Shown here: in pieces, positions 528 to 63,058 of the stretch
Position numbering within the stretch: position 1 is the first letter of the stretch
Layout: the number at the start of each line of letters is the position of its first letter
Assembly: GCA_002118135.1 (NCBI GenBank)
Contig: BDIU01000303.1
Coordinates: 1-64,000 of the forward strand
Direction: 5' to 3'
Length of the DNA: 64,000 bases
Origin: Trebouxia sp. TZW2008
Taxonomy: Eukaryota > Chlorophyta > Trebouxiophyceae > Trebouxiales > Trebouxiaceae
Notes under the pieces: generated by a model
Databases searched by the model: none
The model's input: the letters and a program-made list of their open reading frames with translations, nothing else
Told to the model about the DNA's origin: nothing
Position numbers and translations under genes: made by a program

Positions 528-1307
528 GATTTTTCCAGCAGAAGCTGTAGGTGGCTGCACTATGGGCTGTTGGACTGAATCATCGGTTGCATGCTTGCTT
601 GTCAGACTCCACAGCTCTGCTAGGTGCCTACAGAAGCAATACCTTCCCTCCAACCAATTGTGGGCGTCACATGCAGGCTTTGCAGCCTGGCACAGCAACA
701 GCACTGTACGCAGTGACGCTTGAAGCCATTGCTGGGGATGTCCCATCAGCTTCCCAGCAAGCAGCAAAGACGATTGAGCAAATCACTGATCACATTGTCT
801 GGTTCATGCAATGCTAAGTGTGTGCGTCACATGCAGGCGCTGCAGCCAGGAGCAGCAACAGCTTTGGATGCAGCGACTCTTGAAGCTATTGCTGGGGATG
901 TGCCCTCTGCTTTCTTGGCAGCAGCAAAGGCAATTGACCAAACCACAACTTATATTGCCAGATTCATGCAATGCTAAGTGTGTGCGTCACATGCAGGCGC
1001 TACAGCCCGGCGCAGCCACAGCGTTAGATGCAGCAACTGTTGAAGCCATTGATGGTGATGTGCCCTCAATCTCATCACGAGCAGCACAATTTGCTGAGCA
1101 ACCTACAAAATCAAATGGCTGCCTGACATGCAGGCGCTCCAGCCAGGAGCAGCAACAGCTTTGGATGCAGCGGCTCTTGAAGCTATTGCTGGGGATGTGC
1201 CATCAGCTTTCTTGGCAGCAGCACAGGTGGTCGGGCAGCCTCTGGTACAGGTCATGGTGGCATCTGGACTCCAGCCCAGCAAAGCTGCAAGCAAACGCAT
1301 GATCAAG
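528..1307 (+). CDS. Unidentified plus-strand gene, two candidate exons (partial)
   Basis: I do not recognise this product. Two stretches look like exons because each has degraded copies beside it. The first, about 540-629, follows a pyrimidine-rich acceptor and reads AEAVGGCTMGCWTESS... up to a GTGCCT donor; an older copy lies at about 205-300. The second, 1134-1307, starts after ACATGCAG and reads ALQPGAATALDAAALEAIAG, continues through VMVASGLQPSKAASKRMIK, and stops at AAG|GCAAGT, which looks like a GC-AG intron donor. The composition is Ala-rich and helical, with no catalytic motif that I can see. The gene probably begins left of the window. I could not find its last exon or stop codon. 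Exon limits are inferred from splice signals and from where the copies break. Confidence 0.4.
677..1133. repeat. Acceptor-side exon copies, left gene
   Basis: Three tandem copies begin after ATGCAG at 677, 837 and 997; the intact exon follows at 1134. Each repeats the acceptor and the first part of the exon (Ala-Leu-Gln-Pro-Gly...). Spacings are 160, 160 and 137 bp. They also share intron sequence (about 806-836 and 966-996 are nearly identical). Confidence 0.8.
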
Positions 1308-1344
1308 GCAAGTTGCACGGCCATGTACCCTTGTATTTATCTCT

Positions 1345-2616: not shown

Positions 2617-5600
2617 ATGGCAACACCTTACACCATCAATGTTGACCAGGCAGTCTTGGACGACCTCAAACGCCGATTGCAGCACACTCGGTTGCCTGAC
2701 CATATACCTGGAACATACTGGGACTATGGCACAGAGCCATCTTATCTGAAGGTGCATCATCAACAGTCGGTCTACACTGCTTCAACAGAGCATGTGCATG
2801 TGCATGTGCGTGCATGTGCTTGCATTCCAAGACTGCCCCAGAAAATACTGCTTTGCTGCATGGTTACATATGCTGCAACTTCCGCAGAGCACGCTCGACT
2901 TTGAAGCAAAGGCTCCACAAACGCATGCCTGTTTGGCATTGCCTTGTGAAAACCCATGCAGGAGGTTTTGAATCATTGCATCACTTTGTCCGACTGCTGT
3001 TTTTGAACATGCACCACAATAGGCATGCCTAGCTGGCATGCATTCACTGAGGCACAGTGCACATGCGAGCTTTTGAACCATTGCATCTTTGAACGCTGTC
3101 AAGTCCGAGTAGGAGCTTCTTCATCATTGGATTACGTCATATGACAGGAGAGCTCATGAGGCCAAGTTCAACAAGTCCCTGCATCATTTCAAGATGCCGG
3201 TCAACACCATTGACTGCGCTTTGTGCATGAATGGTCATCAACATCAAGTGCACCCCAATTGCATGCCTGGCTGGCATCAACTGAATTGCAAATCATGCAG
3301 GAGCTTCTGAATCATTGGATTACTTCATGTGATTGGAGAGCGCATGAAGCAAAGCTCAACAAGTCCCTACATCACTTCAAGATGCCAGTCAACACCATTG
3401 ACCTGCATTTTGTCCATGAGAGGTCATCACAAGCTGGTGCTATCCCTTTGGTCCTGATTCATGGTTGGCATCAACTGATCTGCAAATCATGCAGGAGCTT
3501 CTGAACCACTGGATCGCTTCATATGACTGGAGGGCCCATGAAGCAAAGCTCAACAAGTCCCTACATCACTTCAAGATGCCGGTCAACACCATTGACCTGC
3601 ATTTCGTGCATGAGAGGTCCTCACAAGCTGGTGCTATCCCTCTAGTGCTGATCCATGGTTGGCCTGGCAGCATTCTGGAGTTCACTGAGCTCATCCCCCA
3701 GCTAGTCAACCCAGGTATGCTCAGCAAGATCACATGATCTGCCAAGCTTGACAGCATCACACATGTTCGTCCGTTGACACACTGGAAAACCTAATTGTTT
3801 GCAGAAGCTTGAGTATGTCAAGGATTAGCTTGCGTTGGTACCAAGCCGCTTTGAGCAGAGCTGTTTGCACTGCTGACACGTGCACTCAGCGGGATTGTGG
3901 GACCTCAACAGCCAGCATGGAACAATGATGATCCCGACAGTAGTCGTTGGAACCTCATCAGCAAGCATGTCAAAATGACAGTCAAGATGGTGGTCACGGA
4001 ACCACATAGACAAGCATGCCCCCAAAAATGGTCATGAGACCTAATCAGCGAGCATAATGATGAGGCTCATGATGCCAACAATGTTTATTGTAGGGCCAGG
4101 CAAGCAGGCCTTTCATGTGGTGGCTCCCTCCTTGCCAGGCTTTGCCTTCTCCTCAGCTCCCAAGCAGAAGGGCTTTGGCCTGAAGCAGATTGCCAAGACC
4201 TTCAACCAGCTCATGCTGGAGCTTGGATACACCAAGTATGTTGCACAAGGTCAGTTGCTGACTCAACGTTGTGATAAGAGCCCTTGAGACTTTGTCTCAA
4301 AGTCTATCTGTGTGAATGTTAAAGATTCTGTGTAAATATTGCATGGGATTACATGCACAGCAGGAAGGTTGCCAAGAGTAATGCTTATGGCTAATTCCCC
4401 CACGTTGTTACTGAAGCTTTGTCACGCGCAGTCACCAGCACAACCACAGAAACTTCGCTAAACCCATGTCAGACCTTTTTCACATCATGACATGCTTGCA
4501 CCAGGATTTGTCACGACATGCAAGCAGCTGTTTCAGCTCTCTGTCATGTGACAGGTGGGGTGCTATGCTGTCAAAGGCCCTGGGCTTGTACCACTCTGAT
4601 CACTGCAAGGGCATCAGCATGAAAATGCCTGCATTGAACTTTTCATGACAGTCAATCAGCTATTGCAGTTTCCACTGCAAATTTGATCACTGAAAGGCTG
4701 TCAATATCATTATGCTTGCATCAGACTCCACATGGCCGTCGATCATCTTGCACTCTTCTGTGACAGGTGGTGACTGGGGAGCCATGCTGTCAAAGGCCCT
4801 GGGCTTATACCATTCCGATCACTGCAAGGGCATCCATATCAACATGTTGGCAGCAGCGCCCCGCTTCTACAACCCTCGGCATATACTGCAGATGGCAAAT
4901 GCCTTTTTGCCTTACCTGGACCAATATCCCATCTTTGCCACTGCACAGGAGATCTCATGGCTCAAAGACACCAGGCATTTTGAGACTCAGGAAGCAGGTA
5001 GGGTAGTCTCCCATTGTGTGTGCTGTGTTCCTTTGCTCTTGAAGTGTTCATTACAATGTAGACAGCAATGGACTGTTGCACAAGCTATTACCGCATGCTT
5101 GCCACGCATTTTGCAACTCAGAAGCATGTCAGGCATGTATCCTACCTAAGGGGTGCTGCACATTATCTTTGCTTGCACTTGCGCCATGTCTCCTCATCAC
5201 AGCCATCGAGTTGTGTTGTATGGTTGCAGCTCCTGTGCCACCGCAATGCAAAGATGTACAGTCCATGCATGCAGACACCCCCCTGGTGCACATCTCATTG
5301 TGGCTGTTGTGCTGCCTTAATCAGTATGCAGTGTCAAGGCCCCAGGTGACAACACAAGCATGTCAGAAGTTTAGCTTTTGGGTCCGCAATTTTTGGGTGT
5401 TTTTGTACCCATGTACATGGAAAGCTTGACTCAAATTCTGGCTGGCTGATGATTCTAAAGCTAGTTTCACAATTGTTACAACAGCTCGCTGTTACATGAG
5501 GTGGCTGCTGCAGCGTACAATGAAGAGCAAGCCACAAAGCCCCAAACTCTGGGCTATGGATTGAATGACTCACCCGCCGGTCTCTTGGCATGGATTGTGG

Positions 5601-8662: not shown

Positions 8663-11600
8663 AGGTCCACATTCAAGCTCAGGTCAGCTGCACCATCCGC
8701 CAGCCATTTCAATGCTGCGCAACGCTCCGACTTGAAGCTGCTGCTGTCCATTCAGGAGTTTGCACAGCTGAACTGGGGCAAGGTGCTGCCTTCTGGATCA
8801 GTCGTGCGCGATGCTGCAAGTGCCTTTTGCCGGGCCTACGGACTATTCAGCTTGCATTGTCGCCTTTTGGCAAACGGCGAAAACCTTGACTTGAACACCC
8901 CTCTCCAGCAGGTCGTACATAGTATGTCAGCAACAATGCTTCCACTTACTGCACGGTCTCAACAAGGACTGTGAGTGCAGTTGGATCCTAAAGGGACAGG
9001 CGTGGTCAAGCTGGACGCCATCTTCCATTCTTCGGCCTCGTTTGCAGTCTGGCAAATTCTGTCTGTGGAGACAAAGCACCCTGCCTGGGAGGACAGCTGC
9101 AAAGGATTCGTGCTGCCTCTGTTGTCACATCTTCTGCCCAAGGACAGTGATGAGGATGTGATCAGGCAGATCATGTTAGTTCATCCAAGGCAGCTGGCGT
9201 ATGCCTCAGAAAAGGCTGACTTGCCGACTGACTACTGCGTCCAGCCAGTAGCATTGCCCTGCCTTTCATGGGCATTGCAGGTTCTGAAGTATGCACAACA
9301 AGGGTTTGACGGCTTCATTGAGTTTGCAGAAGCTGCAAAGGCAGCCGCATCAGACAGCGCTCCTCAGATTATTCAGTTGCAATCTGCTGTGGTCTTTGAG
9401 GATGCCAAAATTGGACTTGGGGTCTCTGAACCCAACCCGCAGGAAACGCTAGGGGACATTTGCAAGATGGATCCAAACTGCTACATATCTGTCAGTTACC
9501 TGGATCACATCGTCGCAGCGTTGTTGATGATGAAGCTCTCACTGTTGGTAGCAGCAGTGCGTAGCGACAGCCTAGAAACGTGCAATGCTCAGGCAACTCT
9601 GTGGTCAGTCATTGCAACCTTCACTGACAGCCTGAGGCAGCAGAAGTATGCAAGCATAGACAGCTGCTCTGAGGATGACGTTTCAAAGATACAGCGCCTA
9701 TCACTGATGCTGGTGCAGCTGCTGCTGCGAATGATACGCCAAGCCATCAAAGACAGCTCACAGCAAGCGTTCCACAGCATAGAACTACTGCACGTCCTGC
9801 TGCTGTCACCATTCAAGCCAGTGGGGGACAGCATTGCAGCTGAGATCATTGATGCAGGTATGTGTGCAACCCTTACTTTCTGCCTCAATGCTCACGGTCA
9901 CTTCTTTCCGCCTCATTGCATTTTGTCTCCTTGTGCAAGGATGGTGCTGCATGCAATTTTTTTGCAGGCTCTCTTGATATGTTGAGGTCACGCAAAGGTT
10001 TTGTCTCGCAGCACAGCATCAGGATTAATTATGCCAGCATGCTCATGCTGTGCCGCTGGCAAGCTTGATTTGCTTGAGTGTTGGCTGAATGTTTTCGTCA
10101 ACTGACCTTGATGCATGTGGACTGCACAGCCTTTTGCGTGACAGTTCTGCTTGCAGACCAGTTCACGTCCCCAGCAGATTTTACAGTGATGATGGCTCAT
10201 CTCAATGCGCTGATGTTTGCACCATTTGTTGCGTGTCAAAAGCCTGCGCATGCTTGCAGCTGACGTCGTCTCTCTGACACCACCTTTTGAGGGCAAGCAG
10301 CAGGCAGGCGTGCAAAGTGCTGCTGCTGCTTGTGACCCAGCAGGAGTTTGGCTCACAAAGCCATATGCTTGGTGCCTGTTTGCAGGTGGCATTGTCTCTC
10401 AAATAGCAGCCTTGGAGGGCAAGCGGCGGGCAGCAGGCAGGCGTGCAAAGTGCTGCTGCTGCTTGTGACCAGGCAGGCATTCAATGCAAAACACAGGGCC
10501 ACACGCCTGGTGCCTGTTTGCAGGTCGCATTGTCTCTCTGATAGCAGCCTGGGAAGGCAAGCGACGGGCAGCAGGGGAGGCATGCAAAGTGCTGCGGTTG
10601 CTTGTGACGCAGCAGGGATACAGAGCCATACGCCTGGTGCCTTTTTGCAGGTGTGGTTGTCCCTCTGATAGCAGGCTTAGAGGGCAAGCGTCATGCAGCA
10701 GCGAAGATTTGCAGAGTGCTGCTGCTTGTGGTCCAGCAGGAGTTGGGTGCAAGACACAGAGCCTCACGCCTGTTGCCTGTTTGCAGGTAGCATTGTCTCT
10801 CTGACAGCAGCCTTAGAGGGCAAGAGGCAGGCAGCAGGGGAGGCATGCAAAGTGCGGCTGCTGCTTGTGATCCAGCAGGAATTTGCTGCAAACACAGAGC
10901 CACACGTCTGGTGCCTATTTGCAGATGGCATTGTCTGTCTGATAGCAGCCTTAGTGGACAGGAGGCAGGGGAGGCATGCAAAGTGCTGCGGTTGCTTGTG
11001 ACGCAGCAGGGATACAGAGTCCATACGGCTTGTGCCTGTTTGCAGGTGTCGTTGTCCCTCTGATAGCAGCCTTAGAGGGCAAGCGTCATGCAGCAGCAGA
11101 GATATGCAGAGTGCTGCTGCTTGTGGTCCAGCAGGAGCTTGGCGCAAGACACAGAGCCTCATGCCTGTTGCCTATTTGCAGGTCGCATTGTCTCTCTGAT
11201 AGCAGCCTTAGAGGGCAAGAGGCAGGCAGCAGGGGAAATATGCAAAGTGCTGCTGCTGCTTGTGACCAAGCAGGCATTCAATGCAAAACACAGCGCCACA
11301 CGCCTGGTGCTTGTTTGCAGGTCGCATTGTCTCTCTGATAGCAGCCTTAGAGGGCAATAGGCAGGCAGCAGGGGAGATATGCAAAGTGCTGCTGCTGCTT
11401 GTGACCAAGCCGGAGTTCTATGCAAAAATAGAGCCATACGCCTGGTGCCTGTTTGCAGGTGGCCTTGTCTCTCTGATAGCAGCCTTGGAAGGCAAGCGGC
11501 AGGCGGCAGGGGAGGCATGTAGAGTGCTGCTGCTGCTTGTGACCAAGCAGGGATTTGAGTGCAAATATAGAGCCATACGACTGGTGTCTCGCATGCAAGG

Positions 11601-14600: not shown

Positions 14601-17600
14601 CAAGCAACTCAAGGATCTAGCCTCCATCATTGTGCAGTTGAACTCTGTCCTGCATATCATCACCCATGGACATATAGCCGACCCAAAATTGGGCATGTCA
14701 GCCATCTTTTGGCCGCTTTTGAGGGCAGCGACTCAGAACATTGTGAGCTTTGGATGCCACGTGGAGATTGCTAATGACCTCATCTTAGCTTTGATGTCAC
14801 GCAAAGCTGTGGACAAAGGGCTATTTGATCTGAAGGGAACAATGATTGAGGAGTCCAACTGGGCCAATCGCATGCTCCTTCTATGCTGCAGTAAGTTCAC
14901 TGGCAGGACTGCTGCATTGTTTGTGTTTGCAACTGAAAAAGTGATGTAGGCAATTCAGGGCATATGTTCAATGCAGCCTCCTTTGCAAGACTTGATCTGT
15001 ATTGCAGAGGCGCTCATTGCTGCTCCTTTACCCGTGCTGTGCTTTTGTCTGTTGTAGTCTGTATGCTGAGTGTGGCGCAAGATGTTGATTCATGAGCATG
15101 ATGTGTCTTGTTGAGCCCATTCAGCTTGGTGCAATCTTGTCTGATTTGTGTGATTTGGTCAAGCATGCAAATTGCTGCAGTTGCCTTCCTGAGTATGGAC
15201 ATGCTAAAGTAAATAATCAATTCTGTGCATGAATGCATGCATGCTGGCTTGTGCATGCGGATAGCACAACTCATGTATGTGACTAGCTCCTCTGCAGATA
15301 CCAGCATGCACAAGCACCCACAGCTGCTGACAGCAGCAGCGCAAGCTGTTCATGAATCCCTGCCCGTGTATGCATGCAAGCTGCACCTTGCATGGGAGAT
15401 AGCACCAGTCAATCTGACTGAATCTTGGGCAAATGTCTGCAGTTGCCGGCATGCAAGTGCAACCACAGTTGCTGACAGCAGCAGCGCAAGCCATTCATGA
15501 ATCCCTGCCCATGTATGCATGCAAGCCGCACCTTGCATGGCGGAAAGCACCAGTCATTCTGACTGAGTCCTGGGCAAATGTCTGCAGTTGCTGGGATGCA
15601 CAAGCGCCCACAGGCGCTGACAGCAGCAGCATAAGCCATTCACAAAGCCCTGACCATGTATGCATGCAAGCCGCATCTTGCATGGCAGAAAGCACCAGTC
15701 AATCTGACTGAATCTTGGGCAAAAGTCTGCAGTTGCCAGCATACAAGTGCGACCACAGGTGCTGACAGCAGCAGCGCAAGCTGTGCATGAAGCCCTGCCC
15801 ATGTATGCGTGCAAGCTGCACCTTGCATGGCAGAAAGCACCAGTCATTGTGACTGAGTCCTGGGCAAATGTCTGCAGTTGCCAGCATGCAAGTGCAACCA
15901 CAGTTGCTGACAGCAGCAGCGCAAGCCATTCATGGCTCCCTGCCCATGTATGCATGCAAACCGCACCTTGCATGGCAGATAGCACCAGTCATTCTGACTG
16001 AGTCCTGGGCTAATGTCTGCAGTTGCTGGGATGCACAAGCGCCCACAGTTGCTGACAGCAGCAGCGCAAGCCGTTCATGAAGCCCTGACCCCTGCTGGGA
16101 CCTGTCACCACATGCTGTCAACACAGGAGCAGTCTCTTCAGCTGGTGGTCCAGTTGAGCTTTGACCTTGTCCAAGCAGATGACACAACCAAGCTGGCAAT
16201 GTGTGCATGCATCGCACGCCTTGCCTGTTTAGACGCTCAAATACGCGGCGCTTTCGTGGAAGATTCGGTGCTCTACCCCACTGCAATTAAAGCAAATCTG
16301 TTTCCGACTTGGCGTCAGCTTGTGATCACATTCATTCAGGTGGGTTTCTGCTTGCTACTGCGTAAAGTTTGGTATACGCTGGGTCTTTGCTTGTTACTGC
16401 ATGACCTATGGTCTACAATGGTCTTAGCTTGGTACTGCGTGAGCTTTAGTGGACACTCAAATTGGTGTGTAACAGAGATGCCATAGTTGATTTGGTCGAG
16501 AGCGTCAAGGGGGTCTGGCAATGCTGTGCGTTCATTTGATGCTCAGCTTGGTATGCCTGTGTGCCTTGTTGGATTGCAAGCAAGTGTGCAGCTTGAGAGT
16601 CTCAGCTGTTGTTTATGCTGCATTGTAGCAACAGTTTATGGCGTAAACACTACATTTGGCTTCATTAGTCAGTGTGCAACAAATCAAGCCTGCGGGCTGC
16701 ATGATGTCAGCATGCCTCTGCATGACTGGACACAGCATGCCTGCTTAGCAAGTGTTTCAAGGTGTGCTGATGATGGCCCTAACTGTCCAAACAAGGCATA
16801 GTCTGCTGTTTTGACTGCTGGAATCCATGCTGGACGCGGGCATCAGCATAGCAACTGCAACATGTGCCAAAGAGCATAGGATCGCTGAGCATCAGCAAGT
16901 GATCTAGGTTCGACTGCATTCTGGTGTCAATGTTGATGACAGTGCTCTTGACTTTGACTGTAGTATTGAGGTGAACATGTATGATGTTATGGATGCAGAC
17001 CCCAGCCCCATGGAATCTTTTGCATTGTCTTGGCGTGCCGCCACTGCCCAATTGGCCAGAGACTCATTTTGTTGTGCTCTAAAGTATTTCAGTGATATTT
17101 ATTATTATATGAATGCAGGCTCCAGCCCCATGGAACCTTCTGCATTGTCTTGGCGTGCTGCGCATGCTGCACCATTGCCGCGACTTGGCTGAGACCCCTT
17201 TGGACAAAGCCCAGGACAGCAAGATCTGGGAGGTGGGGTGCTTTCATGTCTTTGCACACTGCACATGACAGCATTCGATTATGTCTTGGCTTGTGTCGTT
17301 TTAACGGCAACTTCTCAAGTGCCTGGCATGTGATAAGTTCTTTGGGGCGAGTGTAGAATGCTTGGGTGTTGAAGAGTTTGAACTGCTGTCTTACCAGAGT
17401 CACTGTGTACTGCAGCAGCCAGCAGATTTTGGCGACTTTGCTGTCTGCTGCAGCAGGTCCAGGACTGCTTTGCTGTGCCAGGCATTCTACGTTTGGCCCC
17501 CAGCTCAACCCAACAAGTGCCCAGTTGAGTTGTAGGCAACTTGCAGAATGCCTGTCATGTGCTAAGTTGTTTTGCAATGTCTAGCTCAGTGGACACAACA

Positions 17601-20600
17601 GCCCAATTGGCTGTGGTGTGCTGTGCTTCACTGCGGACTTATTGCTGCTACTTTATGCACATAGCATGCACAAACCTTGTGACCAGCACTCCTGCAACTA
17701 GTGTCAAACTGTTTTCATTTTGCATTGTGATTGAAATGCAGCCCGTGAGCAGACAACCCTCATCAAAGACAGCAGCTTTTGCCCTCACTTTGGTGGTGCC
17801 ATGCAGCTGTGACAGAATGGGTTGTGGATGTAGCCTGTGACCGTACAACCTTCGTTATGAATGGCACACTTTGACTTCACTTTGTCATTGGCATGCAGCC
17901 CTGGACACTAATTCCAGATGCAGCATGTGCAAATGCAGCCAAATGGCAGACTGCAGGCTTTGAGTCTACTTTTTTGTTGAAATGCAGCCCTGAGAACTCA
18001 TTCCAAACGCAGCTTGGCAATGCAATCTTCACTGGAAATAGCAGACTTTGACCTTACTTTGTTACAAGTTTAAATTACCTGCATGCAGCCCCGAATGGAG
18101 ATGGCAGATCTTGGCATGCACCTAGCTTTGAACGTGCAGGTTGTGACCTCAGACATCATCCTGCAAGCAGGCTTTGATTGAGACTTGTCACTGGCATGCA
18201 GCCCCGAGAGGAGACAGCCAACCTTAACATGTAGCTAGCCTTGAGGGTGCAGGACGTCACATCAGAAATCTTTCTGCAGAGGCAGCCTGTGAACATGTCA
18301 ATATCATCACAGTCTTCAACCCTTTTGTGTCGGTGACATGCAGCCCCGAGAGGAGATGGCAAATATTGGCATGCAGCTAGCCTTGAGGGTGCAGGACCTG
18401 ACATCAGACATCACCTTGCAGAGGCAGCTGTTATATGAGGCTATACGCTGGACTGAGATGCCAGAGGGAATTGTCTTCAAAGAAGAGGTGCGCAAAGCTC
18501 AGAATTGTTGTAGTTCAAAATCAAGCTTGTACCAATAGCACCCCTCATTGCTGCCAGACACACTCTGGTGATTGACGCACAGCACATCAACCTTGGGTCC
18601 CAGGATGCCAAAGGCTTTCCTGCTGTGGAAATGGAATGAAGCTGTTAACAAATTCATGATTGTGTCTAGAGCTCAGCATGCCATATATTTGGTGGAGTGC
18701 GTGGACTGAGGGCTGCACTGTGAGCACGTCCTATGCCTGCTGCATTATATGCCATGACCAAAATAGAACCTGTCCTACTTGGGTTGAGTATATTGACAGC
18801 AATGGCTTTGGCAGATATGCCCTAAAACGGAATGCTGCTGAACGAAATTGCAGCAAAATTAGCAATATGCTTGCCAGTCTGTTTGCTGCCTGTGCTAGCT
18901 ATGTAGAATGTTAGTGTGATACAAGGTACGTTACATGCAGTATATTGTACAATCATCTCACTATTGCACACAACACTTGCTGTTTACTTTTCCATGTACC
19001 ACATGATATTGTATCTACTGTTTCACAGGGCTGACCTGGAAGGCTGTCTCTTTCAGTGGTAGCCTTTCACAAGGTGCCACAATTTTTTTGCGAGTATGTT
19101 GTCATGTTTCATACCTCATCATATGTGCTTTGTCTTAGGGCTGGGCTCAAAGCTGTCTTCTTTGGTGGAAGCCTTTCATGCTGGACATACTTTGCGTGTA
19201 TGGTGTCATAGGTCATGACTCATCACATATGCTTTGGTACAGATCTGGGTTAGAAGGTTGTTTGCTTTAGTGGTAGTTTTTAATCAGGTCCCGCCACAGC
19301 AAACTCGTAGCAAAACTTGAGCTGAGCTGAGGCACAAATGTGGAGCAGAGTCAACCTAGGAGTGACAGAGCTTATCTGATTGGGCGTGCTTTGTTACAGG
19401 GCTGGGCCAGAAGGTTGTCTGCTTTAGTGGTAGTCTTTATGAGGTGCTGCCACATCAAACCCTTAGAACGGCACATGCTGAGGAACAGCTGTGGACTAGA
19501 GTCAACCTGGGAGTAAGAAAGCTTGCACATTTGGCATGTATGTGGTAATGTTTCATACCTGAACACATATGCTTTGTCGTAGGGCTGGGCTAGAAGTCTG
19601 TCTGCTTTAGTGGTAGTCTTCCATCATGTGCCGCCACAGCAACCTCTTAGCAAGAAGCAAGCTGAAGAACAGATGTGGAGTAGAGTGAACCTGGGAGTAA
19701 CAGAGCCCACACAAGCAGAGCTGTTGAGAGCATTTGTGCGGTGCATCTTGACGCACGGAACGCTTCCTGTCTCAGCTGATTCAGTCACAGACTACCAGCA
19801 GTTTGAGCAGATAGCTATGCCCATTTTAGTTGATGATTTCAAGACGATGGCTGGGGAGGCAAGGTTCAGTCAAGAACAGGGGACTAACTATGATGAGCGT
19901 TTAGAGCATGCTCATGTCTACTTCTATGTTGAAGGTGAAACATGCTTACTCTGGCTGTCAGCAAACGTGTTGCCTGGCATCGTCCATCTGCACATCGCAA
20001 TCTCATAGCAGTGACACTTTCAACGAAAAGGGTAAGTGTCAGTGCATTTGTGAATACATGGCCTGATGACGCTCTTGACCTTGTCATTGTCAACTTCTGC
20101 CCTGAAGGTGAAGAATGCTTACTCTGGCCATTAGCAGATGTCTTGCCTCCCCATTACTTTGTGCAATCATGCATTTACTCATGCAGCCATGACCTTACAG
20201 GCAATGATCGTCGTGTGGAAAAATGCTATGGTGCTTGCTGTGTTGCAACAAAGCCACTCTGCATCTGCACATTGACCTGACCAATCTGCACTCGCTGCTG
20301 TAACCCTCTTTACTTGCTTGCAACCTCACACTATAGCGCCTTGTAACTTCACAGAGCAGCAAGGCTGTGGGATAGTAGCAAGATGTGCGGGGAAATTCCC
20401 TTTTGGTGATGTGTTTTAATGAGAATTTATTGCTTTTGCAGGCCAGAGGATACTGCAGCACAAGTCCTGGACAGCGCTTCTCGCAAACCCTGCCCCACCG
20501 CCATTTGTGATGCAGCAGATTCAGTCCATGATGCAATTCATCTACTTGATGATTGTGCGCCTGGACGAACATTATACTGCTGCTAGACAGCTGAAAGTGG

Positions 20601-22817: not shown

Positions 22818-22865
<48 letters not shown>

Positions 22866-29139: not shown

Positions 29140-29140
29140 A

Positions 29141-49527: not shown

Positions 49528-52500
49528 ATGTCAGGCGCCTTCGTCGGTCAACCTTGCGTGAACACAACTCGATCAGCAGTATCGTGCAGGCTTCCTTGGG
49601 GCTGCGAGTGCTTTGGCAGTAAACGCGTGTCCAGCGACATCAGGCGAGCAGGTATGTTGCTACGTGTTTCGCGTCGTCACAGTATAAAAGCGATTTTCCT
49701 GCCGACCTGCGTAATGTTTTGCATGCGTATGCAGGTGTTTACCGTTCGCGTCGGTCACGCAGACGACCCGCTGACATCAGTGTGGCAGCTGAAGGTACTT
49801 GGAACATACATGGTTCATGCATCATGTTTGTGCATGCTGATTTGCCCAGCTGTTGACAGGCGGACGTCAGTCTTGGGACTTCGGCAGATTCCTCAAGACG
49901 GTCACATACTTCAACGAGCCCCCTACCGCTGAGCAGGTGCTGCAAACTCTCGTGGAGCAACCCATCAAGATCGCTCGACAACTCACTGGCCAACAAGAGG
50001 TACAACAAAGAGCGCATGGCTTGCTATATGCCTGTGCCGTGGTGTATGCGGTCATAGGCGGACCGCTCTTGCTCGTACTGGCTATAACATGACATGTGAT
50101 ATTGGATGGTTGCCAGGAAAAGCAAAGTGCTGTCCTCAAGCTATTGGCAAGCAACAAGTCAGCAGAAGCTCAGTCCAGCACCAATGATGTAGTCCTGGTA
50201 GCAGGTGATTTGGCCTGTCCAACTCAACTTGGCTGCAGCAATTGCCAAACACCAAAACTCTGCAATTCTCTGGGCAATTCACTGCATGGTTCCTGAGCTC
50301 TAGCAGCTGAACAGACTTGATGGAAATTGCGCAAACATAGGTGCGACTGGTGGTGTTGGCAAGCGGGTTGTGGAGGTTCTATTGAGGCAGGGCAAGGCCG
50401 TCAGGGCCCTTGTCAGAGATGAAGACAAGGGCAGAAGATTGCTGGTAAGGTAGCACCTGTCACTGTGTTGACTTTTGGGTGTTGCTGATCCTTGGTTCTC
50501 CAGCTCGTATGCACAATGTGCTGTCTGTGCGGCCGTGTAGACATTGCTGCTGATGCCTTTGAAAAAAGTGCATATCACTGCATACGCCAACCTACACTGC
50601 AGTCCCTGGTGCCAGCGTAGAGCTGGAGCTTGCAATCAAAGCTTTTGCACAGTGTAGCTTCAGGACTTCATATGACACCATACTATCTTTGCGGCTGTGC
50701 CTACATGCGGATAGCACCCATGTGTATTGCATCATCACATGCACTGCATGCAGACCCACTTGAACGAGCTGGTTGCCCAACAGCTGGTCAGAGCAGGCAC
50801 ATTGATCATACTGTCCTTGCCTCATACTGCGTTAGCTTGCTGTTGTCCTGAGCAGTTTTGTCACATTGTTTGCAGAACAAGGTAGGTAAAGCCTCTGTGC
50901 TGGCCTAGAGCTTGGCACAGCAGGGATGTCAATCACACTGTCCTTGCAATCTACTGCATCAGCTTGCTGCTGTACTGAGCACATTTGTCGCATTCTCTGC
51001 AGACCAATCTGAGTGCAGCACCTGGTGCAAGCCTTGAGCTTGTCACAGCAGACATCACAAGGCCCAACAGCCTGTCAGCAGAGCTGTTCCAGGGTGTGAG
51101 GTCAGTCATCTCCTGCACTGCTGTCAGAGTTAGTCCCAAGGAGGGCGACACTGAGAACAGAGACAAGTACAAGCAGGTATGGTGGCATGACAGCATTTGA
51201 ACCATCTTGCACAGTTGGCACTTGTGCATTCTGGGCAATCTTGCTGTTGGGCAAAATCATAACCTATGCTCTACACAGCAAGCCATATGCAAGCATTCAG
51301 CTGCAGATGTTTGCTTAGCAATGAGGTGACAATCAGTGCAAGAGCTCAAAAAGAGGCTGCATACATGGCACATGCACTTTGAGCAGTGACGGGGCAGGAT
51401 GCAATTGACCTCAATGCTTTTGACTGTTTGACTTCTAAGGCAAGCACACTGTCAGTGCATCCCACATACATGCTCTTTGACTATGAGAGCCAATGCAGGG
51501 CATCAAGTTTTACGAGCCTGAGGTGGTTGGAGACACTCCTGAGGCTGTGGAGTTCCGCGGCATACACAATCTGCTGGCTGCTGTCAAGGAGCATGTCGGC
51601 TACCGCCATGGCAAGCTCATCTTCTCAGCTGATGGCCAAGTATGTCTCCCCACTCAACTGTCTCACGTTTCTGCCAAAATCCCTCAAGCAAGTTCATGAA
51701 ACTGAGTCTGTGCCTGTGAAGTTTGAGGTAGCAGCTGCTGACAGGAATGCCTTGCCTGAGCACAGCACGCTGTGTCATCCCAGTCAATTCTGACAGGTGT
51801 TTGTGCTGCCCTGCCAACATCATCAATATGTGCCAGAAATAACAAGCTGCACTGCTGGGCAGTTGATCAGTTTTGCTGTGAAACAACCCGTGACAATTTG
51901 CCAGAACAGTTACTGTGTTATTGCATCCTAAGCAAACTCACTCAATGGATAAATTCATCAACAAATCAATGACTATACCATTGTCTCTTTTGTGATGCTA
52001 GCCACCCTCCATTGCATCTGCTGTGCTGAGAAGCTGAAGACAAAGTCAGCTGCAATATGAGGCTATGGGTGCAGGGGTTGGCCAATGTGTGGGGGCCGTT
52101 TGATGATGTGGTGATAGGAGGAGTATCAGAGCCTTGGTTTGCAGTGCAGCAGGCTGCAGGGTCTGGGTTGCTGTCCATCATCTATGCAAACATTGTGCTG
52201 AAAGTTGCATGGCAAGGTCAGGCACATATGGGTAACTGTGGATGCATGGGCTAGCTAATGTGTGGGGCCCTCTTGATGGTGTGGTGATGGGAGGAGTGTC
52301 AGAGTCTGGGTGTTCAGTGCAGCTGGATGCTGGAGAAGGGGGACAGCCAGCAGGCATCTTCAGCAACAATGTTTCAAATGCTACTCCTCATTCATTGCAA
52401 CTCGTGTGACACGCATTGCATGCAAGATTGGGCACCCACAGTGATTGTGAACGTAGGGTTTGGCCAATGTGTGGGGGCCGCTTGATGATGTGGTGATGGG

Positions 52501-55500
52501 AGGAGTGTCAGAGTCAGGGTTTGCAGTGCAGCAGGGTGCTGGAGAGCAGGGGCAGCCTGCAGGCATCTTCAGCGGCAACGTGTCCTCCTCCAACAATGGT
52601 GGCTTTGCTTCTGTAAGTTTTGACTGTCAGTGTCATTGCTGTTGGTACAGCTCTTGCCTTCTGTTGAAGGCTTGCACAGAATCAGGAATTTCCAGCGGCA
52701 ATGTTTCCTCCTCCAGCAATGGTGGTTTTGCTACTTTAAGTTCCACAGGTCAGTGTCTGTGCTCTTGACAAAGCATACATTTCCTGTACTTGCTCCCCAG
52801 CAGTGCTTACATCTCATGACCAACGAATTGTTCCAGCTTAGTAGAGTTTGGTGATAAATTCAGTTTCTTGAGGGATCACAAAGGCTGTCTTGATTGACAA
52901 ATCCTGCTGTTGTGTCACAGCAACAGACATCGCTGATTCAGAACGTACGCAGCTGTTGCTTCAGATATCTGAGTGATTTGAGAGATGGCAGGCTGAGCAC
53001 ATGTGCTGCAGGTGCGGACCAAGAACTTTGCACCCTCCCTGGACTTGAAGGCATATGGCGGCTTGGGCTTCAGGGTGAGAGGGGACGGGCTGAGATACAA
53101 ATGCACCATCCGGACAGATACCAACTGGGACGGCATTGGCTACACGTTGTGAGTGCCTGCATGCCAATCAGCTTGCAATGCTTGCAAAGAAGGTCACAAC
53201 TTTTGCGCTCAATGCTGTGTAAACAGTGCTGTATAGCGCTGCATGCATCCCTTGGTGTTGTTTTGCTCGTGTGCATGTCCCATCTGGCAAGCTACATCAT
53301 TGAGGGTTTGCAAGCGGGCCACATGCTCATCATCCTGACCTGACAAGGAGCACCTCTCATTTGAGCCTTGCTCACACACCAGTTAATATTGAACACACCA
53401 ATCAGTGGATCGACTCATGTGAAGGTTTCATGACAGCTGAATGAATTGTGTTCATTAGTCTGAATTCAGGTACAGGCTGCTTGCATTAACAATGTCAGTG
53501 CATTGCAGGAGTTTTGACACCAAAGCTGGCAAATGGCATGATGTGCACTTGCCATTCGAAGAGTTTATTCCATTGTTCAGAGCAAAGACAGTCAAAGATG
53601 GCTCACGATTGAATTCATCAACTGTCACATCCATTCAGGTGAACATGCTAATCGCACATCGCAAACTCTGCACAAAAGGCTTGATACAATCCCTGCATCC
53701 TCAGTTGAAGATCTGCAAGATCGTTGTCTAGACATCTTGCCATGACAAAAGTTCCAACAAAAAAGCAGCTGTTGCTCTGTTCCTCACTGCTGTACAATCT
53801 GCTTGTTCTGAGATACTGCCCAGCAGACTTTGCCCGAAATCTGATTTCATTTAGCCATGCATTGCACCCAGATCAACAAATTTAGGTGCTTATCATGAGG
53901 TCAGTGTTCTGCTTTCTTTGCAATCACGGACTGTTTGGTTTGATGCAGTTGATGCTGTCTAAGTTTGAGAATGATGGTAAGCTAAATCCTAATTTCAAGA
54001 CAGGGCCCTTTCAGCTGCCCCTTGCCAAGATCTGGGGCTACCTCAAGGAGCCCCAAGCACCCCGTTTTGTGTTGGTCAGCTCCGCTGGTGTGACACGCCC
54101 TGGCAGGTCAACCCCTTGCCACCTTGCCCCTTGTCCTTACTTGCTTTCGTGACCATGAAGACTACCGTGTGCCAGGTTTGGGTGTTTGAGGATGAGATTC
54201 TTGACTTGCTGAAAAGTGATGCTTTGGTGAGCTGCCTTCTGCTATGTTGGGTGTTGAGCCTGCTGCTATAACTGTGATGTGCCTCTGACTGACAGCTTAG
54301 ATCTGTGATTGCTGCAGGCCGGGTATAGACCTGAGCCAAGAACCTCCAGCTGTACGCATGAATGATGAGCTAGGTGGCATCCTCACCTACAAGCTCAAGG
54401 TGAAACTCCCTTTACCTGTTCATGTCTGACAAGTGTTGACAGCTGCTCTGCATACTATTGACTATATGTTCCCTTCCTGTGAATATAGCACATGCAATCC
54501 TTGCTGCGCATGTCATTCCATCTGTCAAGGCAACAAGGCTGTTGATACCTTCAGGTCATCTTGCACACATCTCAAACGTATCTCTGAGTGTCCACGCACT
54601 TTCTGAAAGAAGCATGTGACAAATGGCTTGCTATGGGTAGCAGGGTGAAGACGAAGTAAGGCAGAGTGGAGTGCCGTTTGCGGTGGTGAGACCATGTGCC
54701 TTGACAGAGGAGCCTGCTGGGGCAGAATTGGCCTTCAGCCAGGGCGATACCATCAAGGTGCCACTGCTTCCTTGCCTTCTGACCATTGAGCGCCCATAGC
54801 ATACTGTCTCTTTCTGTCTGCCCTTCAAGAGCAGACAAGAGATGACATGGTCTTTCTGCATGGCATAAGAAGCATCAACATCGTAGACTTTCTGCTTTCT
54901 TGTGACCTTCTCTATAGGGGTCACTGACTGCCAGGCTGGTCAGCTTGCTTGTTGCGATCATCTCCAACCCACCATGTCTCTGCAATATCAAAAAGCAGGT
55001 CTGGAAACCTGTCGCTTGAGTCTTCACTTGCAAGTTCGCAGGCAGAGAATGTGATGTCCTAGACTCATAGCGCACACCTACTGTGTGCTGCCTGCATGAT
55101 GCATATGAGTCAGAGTCTTGCCACTGCAAACTGGTCATAATTTAATGTCCTTCTGTGCAGGGTAAGGTGAGCCGGCAAGACGTTGCAGAGCTGTGTGTGG
55201 AGCTGTTGTCACAGCAGCAGGCGCTCGACACAACCTTTGAGGTCAAGTCCACAGTGCCCTTCAGTCGGCCGTTTACTGTGGATGAAGAGCATCCTCCTGG
55301 CCCTAGAAACTGGCAGGTCAGCATGCTCTGTCCTTCACTTGCTGTTGTGCAGCTTGTTTGGGTACTCATGAGATCATGCTGCTGCTGAAGCAGTCAAACC
55401 TCTCTTGTGCATTCATGACTGCATCAGAGCAGTTGGAATCAACAAGGGTTGAGCTCCATTGCCACGAGCATGCAGTGCGTGAAGCAGTGGCACACGTGTG

Positions 55501-57655: not shown

Positions 57656-57953
57656 GCAACGCTAGCATCGTTGCCGATCAAGGCATGCTGCAGATCTGCA
57701 CAACAGCCGATTCGCGTCTGCGCAGCGCTGCGGCCAGCGCACAATTCGTCATGGGATGTGACGCGTCTCGCAACTATCGCTGGCGTCTGCGACTGGCGAG
57801 CTTTACCAGCGATGAGCCTTGACTACAACATGTATACTCACGTGCCTAAAGCAAGCGCAGCAGGCAAATCCCGCACAGCATGACGGACCGTCGTTAGCAT
57901 GTCGTGAAGAAAGCTGGCACGAAACAGACGACGCAATTTAGGCCCGACGAGTC
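57656..57953. promoter_or_regulatory. Divergent promoter, PIG-H / kelch gene
   Basis: 298 bp between opposite start codons, CpG-richer than the surrounding introns (GCGCAGCGCTGCGGCCAGCG at about 57720). No obvious TATA box. Both promoters and 5' UTRs must fit here. Confidence 0.6.
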
Positions 57954-60900
57954 ATGAAGTGGGTTCCGGGTACCCTTGCGGCTGCGAGCCCCGCAGCTGC
58001 TCCGCCTGCAGCTCGCATGGGTCACATCGCTGTCGCGGTTGATGCGCGAGAGTCCTGGGGTGACGAGATCCTGGTGGTGCACGGCGGACTCAGCGAGGGC
58101 AAGTACGCCCTGGCAGATGTCGTGATCTTTCAAGCCGAGGGCAACGCCTGGTCGCGCCCAGACATCCCAGCTGCGGGCCCACATGCGCGAGCCTTCCACT
58201 GCGCCGCTGTCGTCAGTACCAAAGTGTTCATGTTCGGCGGACACGTTTGGGTAAAAGAGAAGAAGGGCTTGCAAAAGTTCAACGATCTGTGGTGCCTGAA
58301 CACGGTCAGTCTGACACTTGTGCTGATTGACCTGTTCTGCCTGCATAGAAGCGATTTACAACGCTTTTCTGTATGACAACTGCGTTGATCACCAACACAG
58401 CTTTCCTTACTCAGTGACATTGCTGCAGTCCTTGGTTCCTGATTGCCTTGTCTTTACATTCAGCATGTCCAAGATTAAGTGTCCTATCAGCAGAAATAAC
58501 CGCTCAACTGTCTGCTGCCAATTGCAGGACAACTGGGAGTGGAGTCATGTTGATGTGGCCAAAGATGCACCGCAGCCATCAGCACGTGATTTCGCCTGCA
58601 TTGCAGCCCTGGAGGGAGGTCGCCTATTGGTGCATGGTGGCCTTGATGCTGCAGAGCGCCGCCTTGATGATGCCTGGATCTTTGATACCATCACGTAAGT
58701 CAGCTGCAGATGTGCAGTAGCTTGCATGAGTGGCCTGTGCTGCCTGCTGCTGGCTTGAAACCATCCGTCCGTCAGCAGCAGATGTACAATATGTAGCTTG
58801 CATGACATGTCTGTCATGCCTGCTGGTGGCTTGACACTGCTGGGCACAAGCTTGAATTCAGCCGTTGAGGGCATCACGTGAGGCAAAACAGCATGCAATT
58901 GTGCATTGTCGTGCACATGATAAATTTGCTGTGCACACTTGCACATCCTGCCAGCATTGATTGCATTCAGCCCTCATGCCTCATGCATGCAGCTGCACTT
59001 TGCACTGTATCCATGCGTTGAGCTGTGAGCATTTGTGAAGTCGCAACTGGAGCAAGGCAAGCCCATGCTGATTGCCAAGCTAAAGTTTAATACGCATTCT
59101 GCACTCTGGATGTCTGGATGACCTGAAACATGATGGCAAAACAGCAAGATGGTAAATTCTAAGCTGCCTGTTTGCCTTTATGGCTTGTGACAGGTGCATG
59201 TGTTAAATCTGCTGCTGCTGCTGCTGCTGCTGCTCCTGCTGCTGCTGGCTGTGCAAAGACATAGGCATTTGAGAACCCAGTATCATACGGTAGCAGCGTT
59301 ACTGGGAGGGTGAAACATCACAAGGCAGCAGCCTTGATAAGGCATGCAGGGGTAGCTGGACAGAGCTCAAAGTGTGTGTGCTGACGCCTACAGCATGCTA
59401 TGGGCACAGCATGTACACAGTGGACAGCCGTGTGTTTCTGTGTGGCAGTGACAAACAATGCCGATGGTGATGAGAGGAGCAAGGTTCAAAAGCCAGCAAC
59501 ACCTCTGTTTGACATGCAGAGGTAGCTGGACAGAACTCAAAGTGAGTGGGCTCAAGCCTAAAGCGCGGTATGGGCACAGCATGTGCAGAGTGGACAGCAG
59601 AGTTTTCTTGTTTGGTGGAGAGAACAACACAAGTCTAGCTAATGATCTCTGGACCCTGAGGGGTTTAGGGCTGGACGGTGCAGAAGCCCCTGCCTGGATA
59701 CCCCTGGAGCTGCCTGGGAATGCCCCTGCCCCACGCAAGGGCCACTCCCTGTCAGGTGAGCAGCGGAAAACAAAAACAAGTGAAAAAGCAAGATTAAGGA
59801 AAAATAGCCTTGCTGATGATTTGCGGACTCTGAGGGGTTGGGGCTAGACAGTGCAGAAACGCTTGCCTAGAAATCCTTGGAGCTGTTTGGAAGCCCCAAG
59901 CTCGGCTTCCATAGTCAAGCAGGAGGAAGCCCTAGGGCTCTTGACTACAGCCGCCCTAGGGCTGGGGCCTTTGTCAGAGCAAAGGCCACTCCTTGTCTGT
60001 CAAACATCTTTGTCAACCCTGCTGTGATGTTGCTATAATGTGTCAACTGCAGTCAAAACATGCACAGTCACATGCACTGCCAGCTTTGCATCACCTCTTG
60101 CATTGTGTGCCGCTCAACTGATCGTGTGACGATCAGCTCTCATCAACATCATAATCATAAAAAAGGTGATGAATATCATCAACGACACAGGTGTGCATGC
60201 TATAACAGGTGCTAGGCGTGTATGTCCAACAAGCTGTCATGATGATGCAGGCATGGGGCTGTGGCTAGTAGTTATGGGTGGGCGTACAGCAGATATTGGT
60301 TGGTTCCGCACCAAGACTGACAGCTTCCTCAATGACACTGTTGTGATGGACAGGTAGACCTCCCAGTGCTGACCACTTGAGTTTTCCATTGAAAAATCAT
60401 TTGCTGGTGATTGGTACACACACAAGCTGAAAATAACAGGTGCTTTGGTTTACAGCCTGAAGGGATTCTAGCCCCAGCATGTTATGCAAGCAATGCACTT
60501 TTGCATTGAACAGATGGTGTAAATGCAAAGGGCTTGGGCGCAAGGCTCCACAGTGCAGACCATCAAAAAGGTGTATCATGCCCAGGTGTTGCTGCCTGAG
60601 CATGGGTTGCAGCAAGGATTCGTCCTGCTGTTTACTTGTATGCGCAATACTGAGCATGACAGGATCTGTTGCGCGTACAGGGAAGGGGCAGTTACCTGGC
60701 GCTCACCAACGGTCAATGGAGATGCACCTGCTGCCAGAGAGTTCCACACCCTTACACCTCTCAACAAAGGCCGCCTCATGCTCTTTGGAGGTACCTGCCT
60801 GGTCCATATTTTGCCCGGTTGCACGGTGTGCCTGAGACAGAAGCAGTGGTACATCTGCAATGTTGTTGCAAAGCACATGCAGCCTGTGAGTCAAGATTTG

Positions 60901-63058
60901 CCATCAATGGTGCCCTCCAGCGTAACAGTAATATTTCCTGCAGTGCTCGCAGAGTGTCATGAAACGCATTGCTCATTGGCATTGGTGTCCAATTTGAATT
61001 CCTGACAGCTTCACGGAGAAGCAGTCATTCCCCAGGAGAAATGTCTGATCAGCGATATATATATATATCTTCAAGTCCCATCCTGATCCTTGGACTCAAC
61101 CCTTTAGACAAAGCATCCTGGCAGTGTGCCAAACTGCAATGACTTTGCAGTGCTGTCGATGGCATCAGCACGCAGACACCTGCATCAAACAGATTGCCCA
61201 TGCTTGTCTGATGTTGCATAAGTTGTACACTGCTGCTGCAACAGGTCCCCATGCCAAGCACATTCCCATCAGAAGGCAGAGTTATGTCTCATAACGATTG
61301 AACTGTATACTGCTGCTGTTACAGGTGGCAATTGCAAGCAAATCTTTAGGGAGTGGTTGTGGGTAAACACTGAAGGTGAAGCAATAGTGACTCCTTCACC
61401 AGCAGACCCAAGCATGCAGGCCTACTTAGCTTCTACATGAACTGCTGATGGCTGCTGTGACAGGTGCCAACAGCAAGCAGACTTCTGTCCAAGCACACAG
61501 TCTTTCTGGTTTTGTATGAACTGTGCACTGCTATTTTGCCAGGTGGCAATGGCAAGCAGATCTTTGGAGACTTCTGGTGGCTAGACACAGAAGGAGAAGC
61601 AGTGGTCAATCCATCACTATCAGATCAGAGCATCCAAGCCTACCTGACCTCAACAGCAGCTAGGCCAGGAGGGGCAACAGCCCTGGCCAATCACCTGCAC
61701 AGCCCCCAATCTGCCCTTGCCGGCCCTGATGCCCTCAGACACGACGCTACCCAGGTGGGTAACAGTGAGCATGGTTATTCTGCTGGATTTTCATGGGTTG
61801 TTTGCCTTATATAAGAGGGGTGACTATTGTGCAAACAGAATGCTGGCCAGGTGCATCTGTCTGTCTCTCTGTCTGTTGCAGCATGAGTAGTTGGCCACCC
61901 CCCAGGCCTCATGCCTTCAGAGACAATGCTTGCCAAGCGGGTTTTCTGTTTTCTGGTATTTGTTCAGTGCGGTTCGTATCTGATTGCCAATTGCCATAAC
62001 AGATACTGTTGCTCAGACATGACGCTAGACAGCGCTGCAAATGCGCTGTGCAGTTTGCTGATCACCAATTGATCATGCAGGCAGAAAGGGATAGCCTGGC
62101 TGGGCATCAGAGATGCTCACATCTCACACTCCCAATTTCCTCTCCACTGACCACAGTACTTGGCTTGCATGAGTTGGTCGGTATCAGTCTTTCCGGTTTT
62201 CCCACTACCCCACATGGCTTGCTGATCCTGCAGGCAGAAAGGGACAGCCTGGCTGGCCTTTCAGAAGTGCTGACATCTCAGACTCCCAACCTGATCTCGA
62301 CTGGCCACAGCGACTGGTATGGCGAGCCAGATCAAGCAATGCAGCAACAGCAGCAGCCGCAACACCCTGGCCTTACACATCTCAGAAAGCGCCTAGGCCT
62401 ACCGTTGCAGCAGTCCTTGCACCAAGAGACTGCAACTCAAGCTGCTGATGCATCAGAATTGCGGCAGCAAGGGGATTGTGCACAAGACAGCTTGAGTGCA
62501 GTGCTGCCACCACGCTTTGCCACATGCAGTTATGAGGTTAGTGCAAGACTCTGGCTGTCGGTTGGCGCAGTGTAGTGAATTTGCATTGCAGCTTCTGACG
62601 CTGCTTTACATGCAGCCTGTGTGGTGATATACCGCTGTCCTGCGGTTGACGCCCTGCTGCAACACGTTGTCATGGTCAACAGTGCTGCGCTTTAGCACAG
62701 CAGGCACAAGGTCAATTGTTGGTAGCGCGCTGTCGGATGGCTGTTGCCAATGGCTCACAAATTCCAATATGACTGTTTGTGTGTCTGTACTGAGCAGTGC
62801 ATCTGTGCTCAGAACTCGCTCTATGCGCAGGAGCTGCAACTCAAAGAGCTGGAGAGCTTGTTGCATGCATACAAGCGCTTGGCAGCCTCAAGTCAAGGGG
62901 CATACTTGCAACAGCAGCAAGCAGCTTTTGCTAGCGTGATAACAGCACATTCAGGGCGGTTCTGCCATTGTAATTCAGGCAACCTGACGCCCACAGATGT
63001 GAAGGACTTGCTGAGCGAGTACCAGCAGCAACTGCAAACAAGTCTCAGAGTACAGTAG
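57954..63058 (+). CDS. Kelch-repeat protein with C-terminal coiled coil
   Basis: Beta-propeller kelch protein of about 620 residues, probably a scaffold; partner unknown. Eight exons join in phase: 57954-58304, 58528-58694, 59520-59755, 60251-60353, 60681-60790, 61543-61754, 62234-62536 and 62831-63058. Kelch blades show the usual double-Gly strands and Trp: ILVVHGGLSEG, KVFMFGGHVW, RLLVHGGLDAAERRLDDAWI, RVFLFGGENNTSLANDLW, LVVMGGRTADIG, RLMLFGG and GDFWWLDTEG. After the propeller come a disordered Gln-rich stretch (QQQQQPQ) and a helical end (LKELESLLHAYKRLA) with DVKDLLSEYQQQL. The start ATG at 57954 has an Ala/Pro-rich lead before RMGHIAV. No BTB, F-box or ACB domain is visible, so it is not one of the common plant kelch fusions. 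Exons 3, 6 and 7 have copies in flanking introns. Confidence 0.8.
59206..59248. repeat. CTG trinucleotide run
   Basis: About 13 CTG units with one CTC interruption, in the intron before kelch exon 3. Not coding in the exon model. Confidence 0.9.
59346..59460. repeat. Acceptor-side copy of kelch exon 3
   Basis: CATGCAGGGGTAGCTGGACA and about 100 further bases repeat the start of exon 3 (59520), running to the codons corresponding to VFLFGG but with FLCGS-like changes. Spacing about 170 bp. Confidence 0.85.
59800..60000. repeat. Donor-side copies of kelch exon 3
   Basis: AATAGCCTTGCTGATGATTT... (about 59802-59890) repeats the part of exon 3 coding SLANDLWTLRG. A shorter fragment at about 59975-60000 (AAAGGCCACTCCTTGTCTGT) repeats its donor end (KGHSLS). 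Both are downstream of the true donor at 59755. Confidence 0.75.
61240..61542. repeat. Graded copies of kelch exon 6 start
   Basis: Copies follow acceptor-like CAG at about 61245, 61326 and 61466; the intact exon is at 61543. The copy at 61326 is longest (to the codons of PSMQAYLAST, then a TGA). The other two match over about 30 bp (AGGTGCCAACAGCAAGCAGA; AGGTCCCCATGCCAAGCACA). Confidence 0.8.
62060..62233. repeat. Copy of kelch exon 7 start
   Basis: ATGCAGGCAGAAAGGGATAG and about 80 more bases match the exon starting at 62234 (AERDSLAG...). The copy has lost the reading frame after about 30 bases. Confidence 0.8.

Follow-up and report, generated by a model that had tools for sequence, protein, structure and literature searches.

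Tandem copies of exon edges in the introns of the green alga Trebouxia sp. TZW2008

Introduction

The first 64,000 nucleotides of contig BDIU01000303.1 of the green alga Trebouxia sp. TZW2008 (assembly GCA_002118135.1, 68.5 Mb in 527 contigs, GC about 49-50%), called the window below, contain genes that match Pfam models for an epoxide hydrolase, a U-box protein, a WDR55-like WD40 protein, a cation channel on the minus strand, an NmrA-like protein and a kelch protein. Many exons of the window are accompanied by diverged partial copies of their own edges, which lie in the adjacent introns, and an earlier note on this DNA attributed them to a genome process that copies exon edges into introns. 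The copies are real and recurrent duplications of junction edges, and tandem duplication combined with selection is the best account of their polarity, neutrality and arrays.

Extent and polarity of the edge copies

Besides the window, 39 loci of this genome were sampled, 295 kb in all, 20 of them kinase regions and 19 helicase regions; the choice around those domains was not random. Locus L003, which contains coding repeats, was excluded from the counts, leaving 38 analysed loci and the window. Polarity was tallied on the closest pair only for each exon and side, and 44 exon-exon or complex matches and 8 intergenic matches were omitted, which gave 85 cases. Copies of acceptor edges lie upstream of the intact exon in 47 cases (13 in the window) and copies of donor edges downstream in 32 (3 in the window), so that polarity follows gene orientation, as the earlier note had held. 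Six of the 85 cases break or blur this rule, namely one downstream acceptor copy, one upstream donor copy, three whole-exon copies and one exon-interior copy in a coding repeat, the last being the only interior copy, a kind that contiguous duplication forbids. The difference between acceptor and donor numbers (47 versus 32) does not support an acceptor bias (p 0.11).

Among 714 confident edges (353 acceptors and 361 donors), 79 carry a relic copy, which is about 11% (about 13% of acceptors and 9% of donors). The pattern also reaches beyond the window, since at least one edge copy is found in 28 of 39 loci, window counted. Genes differ more than expected by chance (chi-square 80.6, 39 degrees of freedom, p 1e-4, a value reached in 0.001 of binomial simulations): in the 40 genes that have 8 or more confident edges, copies are present at 69 of 625 edges and 12 genes have none. 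Expression, chromatin or tolerance of mis-splicing may underlie this unevenness. The cation channel gene (29368-49088, 45 exons), unlike its neighbours, has a copy at only one of its 68 confident edges. Self-BLAST of 40 sequences returned 296 direct versus 34 inverted local matches. GC-type donors (GCAAGT, GCGAGT) occur at position 1307 of the window, L004 8080 and L015 4879, all in exons with duplicated donor edges, and GC is also read in the copies of the first two.

State of the copies

The copies are neutral relics beside exons that are constrained at codon positions 1 and 2. A drifting copy paired with a protein-constrained exon is expected to show equal change at positions 1 and 2, where the copy alone varies, and about twice as much at position 3, where both do; the observed differences are 226, 195 and 426 over 1664, 1662 and 1648 sites, counted in 71 of the 79 pairs after eight that were too short or below 68% identity had been dropped. 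Insertions and deletions shift the frame in 41 of 48 cases (p 0.005 against two thirds), and on these two results functional exons, whether coding or alternative, were rejected. The median pair identity is 75%, with a 10-90% range of 64-89. Birth of the copies in frame, at a distance that is a multiple of three, is unsupported (22 of 49 acceptor copies, p 0.10; 8 of 27 donor copies).

Arrays and distance from the exon

At least two copies are present at 30 of the 83 edges examined across all loci. Some of them are direct head-to-tail copies at a constant period, that is, tandem arrays, and the regular arrays with matching intron parts have periods of 133, 138, 145 and 150 bp. The longest in the window precedes exon 11457-11665, where the intron flanks of copies 1-8 resemble the real flank and that of the outermost, ninth copy does not. 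The earlier note had read such sets as a conveyor, in which new copies are made at the exon and decay with distance, and this reading failed. In the 30 multi-copy sets the nearest copy is more similar to the exon than the farthest in 16, less similar in 9 and tied in 5 (p 0.23); a conveyor with younger copies nearer the exon was rejected on this basis, and the mean Spearman correlation between similarity and distance is -0.09 in the 17 sets of at least three copies. The real flank is matched (p<0.05) by the nearest copy in 16 of 27 multi-copy sets and by the outermost in 10 (nearest only in nine, outermost only in three), a pattern that might fit exchange inside the array with an older outer flank, without being conclusive.

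Homology near the splice site

Homology on the intron side reaches no further than 15 bp from the junction in 29 of the 59 simple two-copy pairs, and no further than 25 bp in 35. The 15-bp stop is seen in 3 of 10 simple pairs of the window and 26 of 49 at the other loci; with stricter exon sets the share holds at the loci (24/44, then 16/30), and in the window it goes from 3/10 to 3/8 and 1/3. Counted over edges, the intron part exceeds 15 bp at 29 of the 47 acceptors and not at the other 18; over acceptors and donors together, it exceeds 25 bp at 43 of 79 edges. In alignments that run outward from the junction, exon identity stays flat at about 0.81-0.86, with no drop toward the junction or the far end, and intron identity drops to about 0.60, above the 0.53 of unrelated introns and below the 0.72-0.77 of duplications simulated under exon constraint; this intron profile was simulated separately and gave the same contrast as the main simulation, described with the methods. 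In the short-homology pairs, ungapped intron identity is 0.65 up to 9 bp at acceptors (n=16) and 0.40-0.45 up to 12 bp at donors (n=14), with the control level beyond. Young examples of such pairs are L004 8080, L018 2949, L019 6104 and L034 2583. Pairs with short intron homology have periods similar to those with long (medians 175 and 165).

Similarity at p<0.05 between the spacer and the sequence past the copy was seen in 27 of the 39 long-homology pairs and in 8 of the 34 short-homology ones. In 34 pairs, comparison of the spacer with the intron beyond the copy gave weak direct homology in 9/34 and inverted homology in 0/34, and comparison with the other intron gave 1/34. That the spacer is itself a decayed further exon-edge copy was rejected, p<0.01 being reached in only 11 of 35; copy-free edges also showed a small excess in this test (13 of 272 acceptors and 17 of 273 donors at p<0.01). 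The non-matching flanks of 23 outermost acceptor copies have the composition of real acceptors (p 0.006 versus random sites, 0.46 versus real ones). The intron half is thus lost close to the splice site, a genuine residue for which we have no confident explanation.

Junction-spanning share

A neutral-placement model was built in which a duplication is neutral only within an intron or across a single junction. Given the exon and intron lengths, 49-56% of neutral placements span a junction from geometry alone. Detectability raises the expected share, because exon halves decay on one side only: at simulated divergences of 0.3-0.4, 45 of 102 acceptor copies, 32 of 99 donor copies and 11 of 193 intron copies are detected. 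The expected share then becomes 0.545-0.713, depending on the assumed age, with 54-60% when ages are uniform and 71% when every copy is old. In the window and 20 loci, 56 of 69 arrays span a junction (p from 3e-6 to 0.043 by assumed age), a ratio that omits two L003 arrays, 11 complex, one double-sided, one exon-internal and four intergenic arrays. A larger set, which opposes 79 edges to 26 independent intron-only arrays and so compares unlike units, gives p from 9e-6 to 0.22. An excess at junctions is thus present under most, not all, age assumptions, and geometry makes up much of the first impression.

The expectation that junction-spanning copies outnumber intron-only ones beyond chance therefore holds at most assumed ages and fails in the larger set if the copies are old. 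The claim that splice sites are respected more than ordinary repeats would allow is upheld insofar as homology does tend to stop at them, and it was overstated insofar as geometry and slower decay already predict 55-71% of junction-spanning copies.

Intron length

Introns with a single edge copy have a median length of 675 bp (27 introns, short intron homology) or 707 bp (33, long), compared with 295 bp for 205 introns that lack local repeats. Introns of this alga seem to grow by taking in duplicates of their own exon edges, or else longer introns may tolerate more copies.

Edge copies and other features of the window

Self-BLAST and exon models place acceptor-side copies at 16 plus-strand exons of the window, donor-side copies at four of these same exons and, on the minus strand, a copy at a single acceptor edge (31781, cation channel), in agreement with the at least 15 plus-strand exons and one channel exon described before; the extent also agrees, from the first copy at 669 to the last exon end at 62536. 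Re-alignment of the 20 plus-strand edges recovered copies at 19, the donor copy of exon 19640-19934, which was seen by BLAST, being absent from it.

Table 1. Exon-edge copies in the window. Identities are from re-alignment unless stated otherwise.
Exon	Edge and copies	Position of copies	Strand	Identity	Remarks
1134-1314	acceptor, three	669-780, 829-930, 989-1104	+	0.77, 0.95, 0.78	array also in self-BLAST
1134-1314	donor, three	1409-1498, 1563-1628, 1702-1758	+	0.90, 0.88, 0.86	GC-type donor motif (GCAAG)
3495-3714	acceptor, two	3111..3430	+	0.84, 0.91	epoxide hydrolase
4767-4997	acceptor, one	4538..4627	+	0.80	epoxide hydrolase
11457-11665	acceptor, nine	10248..11444	+	0.80-0.89	period about 126-139 bp
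16023-16339	acceptor, five	15291..15948	+	0.84-0.91	period 145 bp
17119-17232	acceptor, one	16989..17064	+	0.88	
18344-18487	acceptor, two	18082..18290	+	0.81, 0.84	
19640-19934	acceptor, several	19291..19529	+	0.86, 0.77	further partial copies in self-BLAST
19640-19934	donor, one	20064..20148	+	74% (BLAST only)	
22520-22728	acceptor, one	22158..22205	+	0.94	
23238-23531	acceptor, one	23103..23195	+	0.87	intron homology about 9 bp
24270-24450	acceptor, three	23905-23962, 24083-24163, 24181-24227	+	0.89, 0.88, 0.91	U-box by Pfam
31545-31781	acceptor, one	31883..31961	-	72% (BLAST)	cation channel; Ion_trans domain in gene
51003-51176	acceptor, one	50866..50932	+	0.72	NmrA-like gene; NmrA by Pfam
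52527-52612	acceptor, one	52308..52375	+	0.81	
52527-52612	donor, one	52683..52742	+	0.85	
59521-59755	acceptor, one	59343..59458	+	0.81	kelch domains in gene
59521-59755	donor, one	59806..59897	+	0.79	kelch domains in gene
61543-61754	acceptor, one	61322..61437	+	0.75	
62234-62536	acceptor, one	62071..62156	+	0.84	intron homology about 11 bp; end 62536 manual, model end 62477

The first gene of the window is the epoxide hydrolase, whose protein, as read from the exon model, has EHN and Abhydrolase_1 domains and aligns over its full length with a metagenome protein (79%) and a protein of Trebouxia sp. C0006 (71%). One of its introns is filled by a diffuse 11-bp minisatellite (CTATGCTG-like, 5953-6857). 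An intergenic direct duplication of 452 bp with 90% identity lies at 7605-8490 and has an N gap (7988-7989) within its first copy. The U-box gene has a long open exon with an Ala/Ser-rich coding minisatellite (13270-14364) of period about 168-174 bp, and pure or nearly pure CAG and CTG runs are present in introns at 22818-22864 and 59209-59247. Outside the window, L003 contains at 991-3870 intronless genes made from 105-bp coding repeats.

Sequence analysis

Local direct repeats were taken from self-BLAST. Exon models are predictions made without RNA by our own splice-aware gene finder, a hidden Markov model trained on Pfam-located kinase exons of the same genome, which learned TGCAG|G as acceptor and CAG|GT(A/G) as donor. 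After the first training, the finder recovered 23 of the 25 kinase spans located by Pfam, with a coverage of at least 0.72, and wholly missed those of L001 and L006; of the later models, that of L001 and part of that of L006 run along the strand opposite to the kinase match. Four exon ends of the window were set by hand, 1314, 11665 (which the model placed elsewhere), 24450 and 59755, the last together with its start 59521. In the main simulation, full tandem duplications were matched to the observed pairs for exon identity and period, and indel rate and exon constraint were varied, which gave three expected shares.

Discussion

The structure, polarity and neutrality of the copies and the regularity of their arrays are observed directly, and the account that we favour, with about even confidence, is that recurrent short tandem duplications and selection explain most of the edge-copy pattern, the intron halves vanishing unusually fast. 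The genome would undergo frequent short tandem duplications, the middle half of the periods being about 135-230 bp, and the first step would be a tandem duplication made by break repair or slippage. Duplications inside exons would be purged by selection. Those that straddle a junction would survive, the exon edge that is continuous with the rest of the exon keeping the reading frame, and the other copy would end up within the intron, lose its function and drift; equal units could then recombine into arrays of up to nine copies. With exonic duplications removed by selection, the survivors look as if aimed at junctions, at the intron side and along the gene. Polarity and junction inclusion need no special process, because a tandem duplication of exon plus intron must span the junction and its outer copy alone is dispensable; slippage, template switching or repair acting at splice junctions themselves, as proposed earlier, may be involved. 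In about half of the pairs, the missing intron half would have been duplicated too and lost faster than the exon half. Introns would rearrange rapidly, held back only over the final ten or so bases that the real splice site requires, and the loss might also be aided by selection against competition between two splice sites or by conversion of the exon half.

In favour of this account are the near-perfect polarity with its single exon-interior copy, the codon-position and indel patterns, the regular arrays with matching intron parts, the similar periods at short and long intron homology, the weak, direct-only homology of the spacer to the intron past the copy, and the genuine-acceptor composition of non-matching outermost acceptor flanks. 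Several observations weigh against it. The share of pairs with intron homology of at most 15 bp (29/59) compares with 3.2, 8.8 or 17.3% in the simulated full tandem duplications. Age alone fails to explain short intron homology, because exon identity and the intron part are not correlated (rho -0.09), and the young pair at L004, with 99 bp of exon tail at 95% identity, has no homology past 5 bp of intron. The composition test on 16 outer donor flanks without a match is not significant (p 0.21). The differences within pairs are mildly clustered (Fisher p 5e-4, individually below 0.05 in only 6 of 68 pairs), which hints at conversion.

Other explanations are taken here in order of decreasing probability. 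Nothing special may happen at junctions, random tandem duplications being purged from exons and those across junctions staying visible longer through their conserved exon side. Geometry (0.49-0.56) and the better detection of junction copies argue for this, and with old copies, for which 0.713 is expected, the excess reaches only p 0.04 (56/69) or 0.22 (79/105); it is nevertheless unlikely, as it does not account for the 29 of 59 pairs whose homology ends inside 15 bp and the excess is significant at younger assumed ages (p 3e-6 to 8e-4).

A process that recognises the boundary could instead copy the exon edge with about 10 bp of intron inward and insert it 30-150 bp into the adjacent intron, possibly by template switching at the junction or by repair templated by a pre-mRNA fragment protected at splice sites. 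The fall of intron identity to the control level past 9 bp (acceptor) or 12 bp (donor), the many simple pairs ending near the splice site and the four young examples speak for such copying. It would be surprising all the same: random insertion would break the near-perfect polarity, the spacer keeps weak homology to the intron beyond the copy (9/34), and the outer acceptor flanks resemble genuine acceptors, not random insertion points. We also know of no biochemical precedent for it.

Gene conversion or unequal exchange might also keep the exon halves of old tandem duplications alike as their intron halves drift to saturation, which is likewise improbable. The lack of relation between exon identity and intron homology, the clustered differences, the exchange between units that arrays imply and the excess of sets in which the nearest and not the outermost copy matches the flank (nine against three of 27) would suit this reading, but exon identity drops toward neither the junction nor the far end, and conversion would have to act over only 40-110 bp. 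Assembly errors or functional alternative exons are very improbable, since the pairs are diverged, unlike duplicated contig ends, the indels mostly shift the frame and codon positions 1 and 2 change equally, and nothing in their favour was found beyond the N gap in the intergenic duplication. Exchange between diverged haplotypes was judged unlikely because a third-position divergence of 0.258 is too small for unalignable introns.

The visible relics on about 11% of exon edges offer datable records of junction duplication and of splice-site competition. If the sharp stop at the splice site is mutational, it would link splicing or exon chromatin with DNA repair. A boundary-sensing process, should this improbable case be true, would seed tandem arrays with neutral exon relics, lengthen introns and act unevenly among genes.

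Comparison with known systems

A tandem duplication across a junction has been described in the potato RdRp gene (Ma et al. 2016, PMC4974935). As there, the direct tandem unit runs from the 3' part of an intron through the acceptor into the 5' part of the following exon, a structure found at 47 acceptor edges of the alga, with splice signals that come from the parent junction. In potato, a single event produced both an additional intron and an additional exon copy, whereas in the alga many genes are affected and the outer copy is a decaying relic in an existing intron, often arrayed or with little intron sequence.

In the Rogers model (PMC2891723), introns are gained by tandem duplication of an exon segment containing AGGT; in Drosophila, 5 of 31 novel intron positions are probable cases. 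A local tandem duplication that makes exonic sequence intronic is common to both. In that model, however, the exon interior is duplicated, its AGGT supplies both splice sites and a new intron is made, and in the alga existing junctions are duplicated and introns lengthen; by the exon models, no new intron arose, the copies span existing junctions and only one of 85 is exon-interior.

Small tandem duplications also arise at breaks with 3' overhangs by Pol alpha-primase/CST fill-in (PMC8355091), which is a plausible source of short tandem duplications; no link to splice sites is described for them. Introner elements (PMC9860276) are alike in that intron sequence spreads in protists and algae, but they form dispersed families, and the two spacer regions searched in the alga are single-copy. 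The L004 region has one match, to itself, and the L034 region three, to itself, to its local copy and to a paralogue of the exon (69%), so that similar introns at many unrelated loci were not found for these two and a mobile spacer was rejected at both. Among the matches listed in the open-licence PubMed Central literature, there is no report of junction-edge copies at genome scale. Junction-crossing duplication is known from one potato gene, and its presence at about 11% of exon edges looks new.

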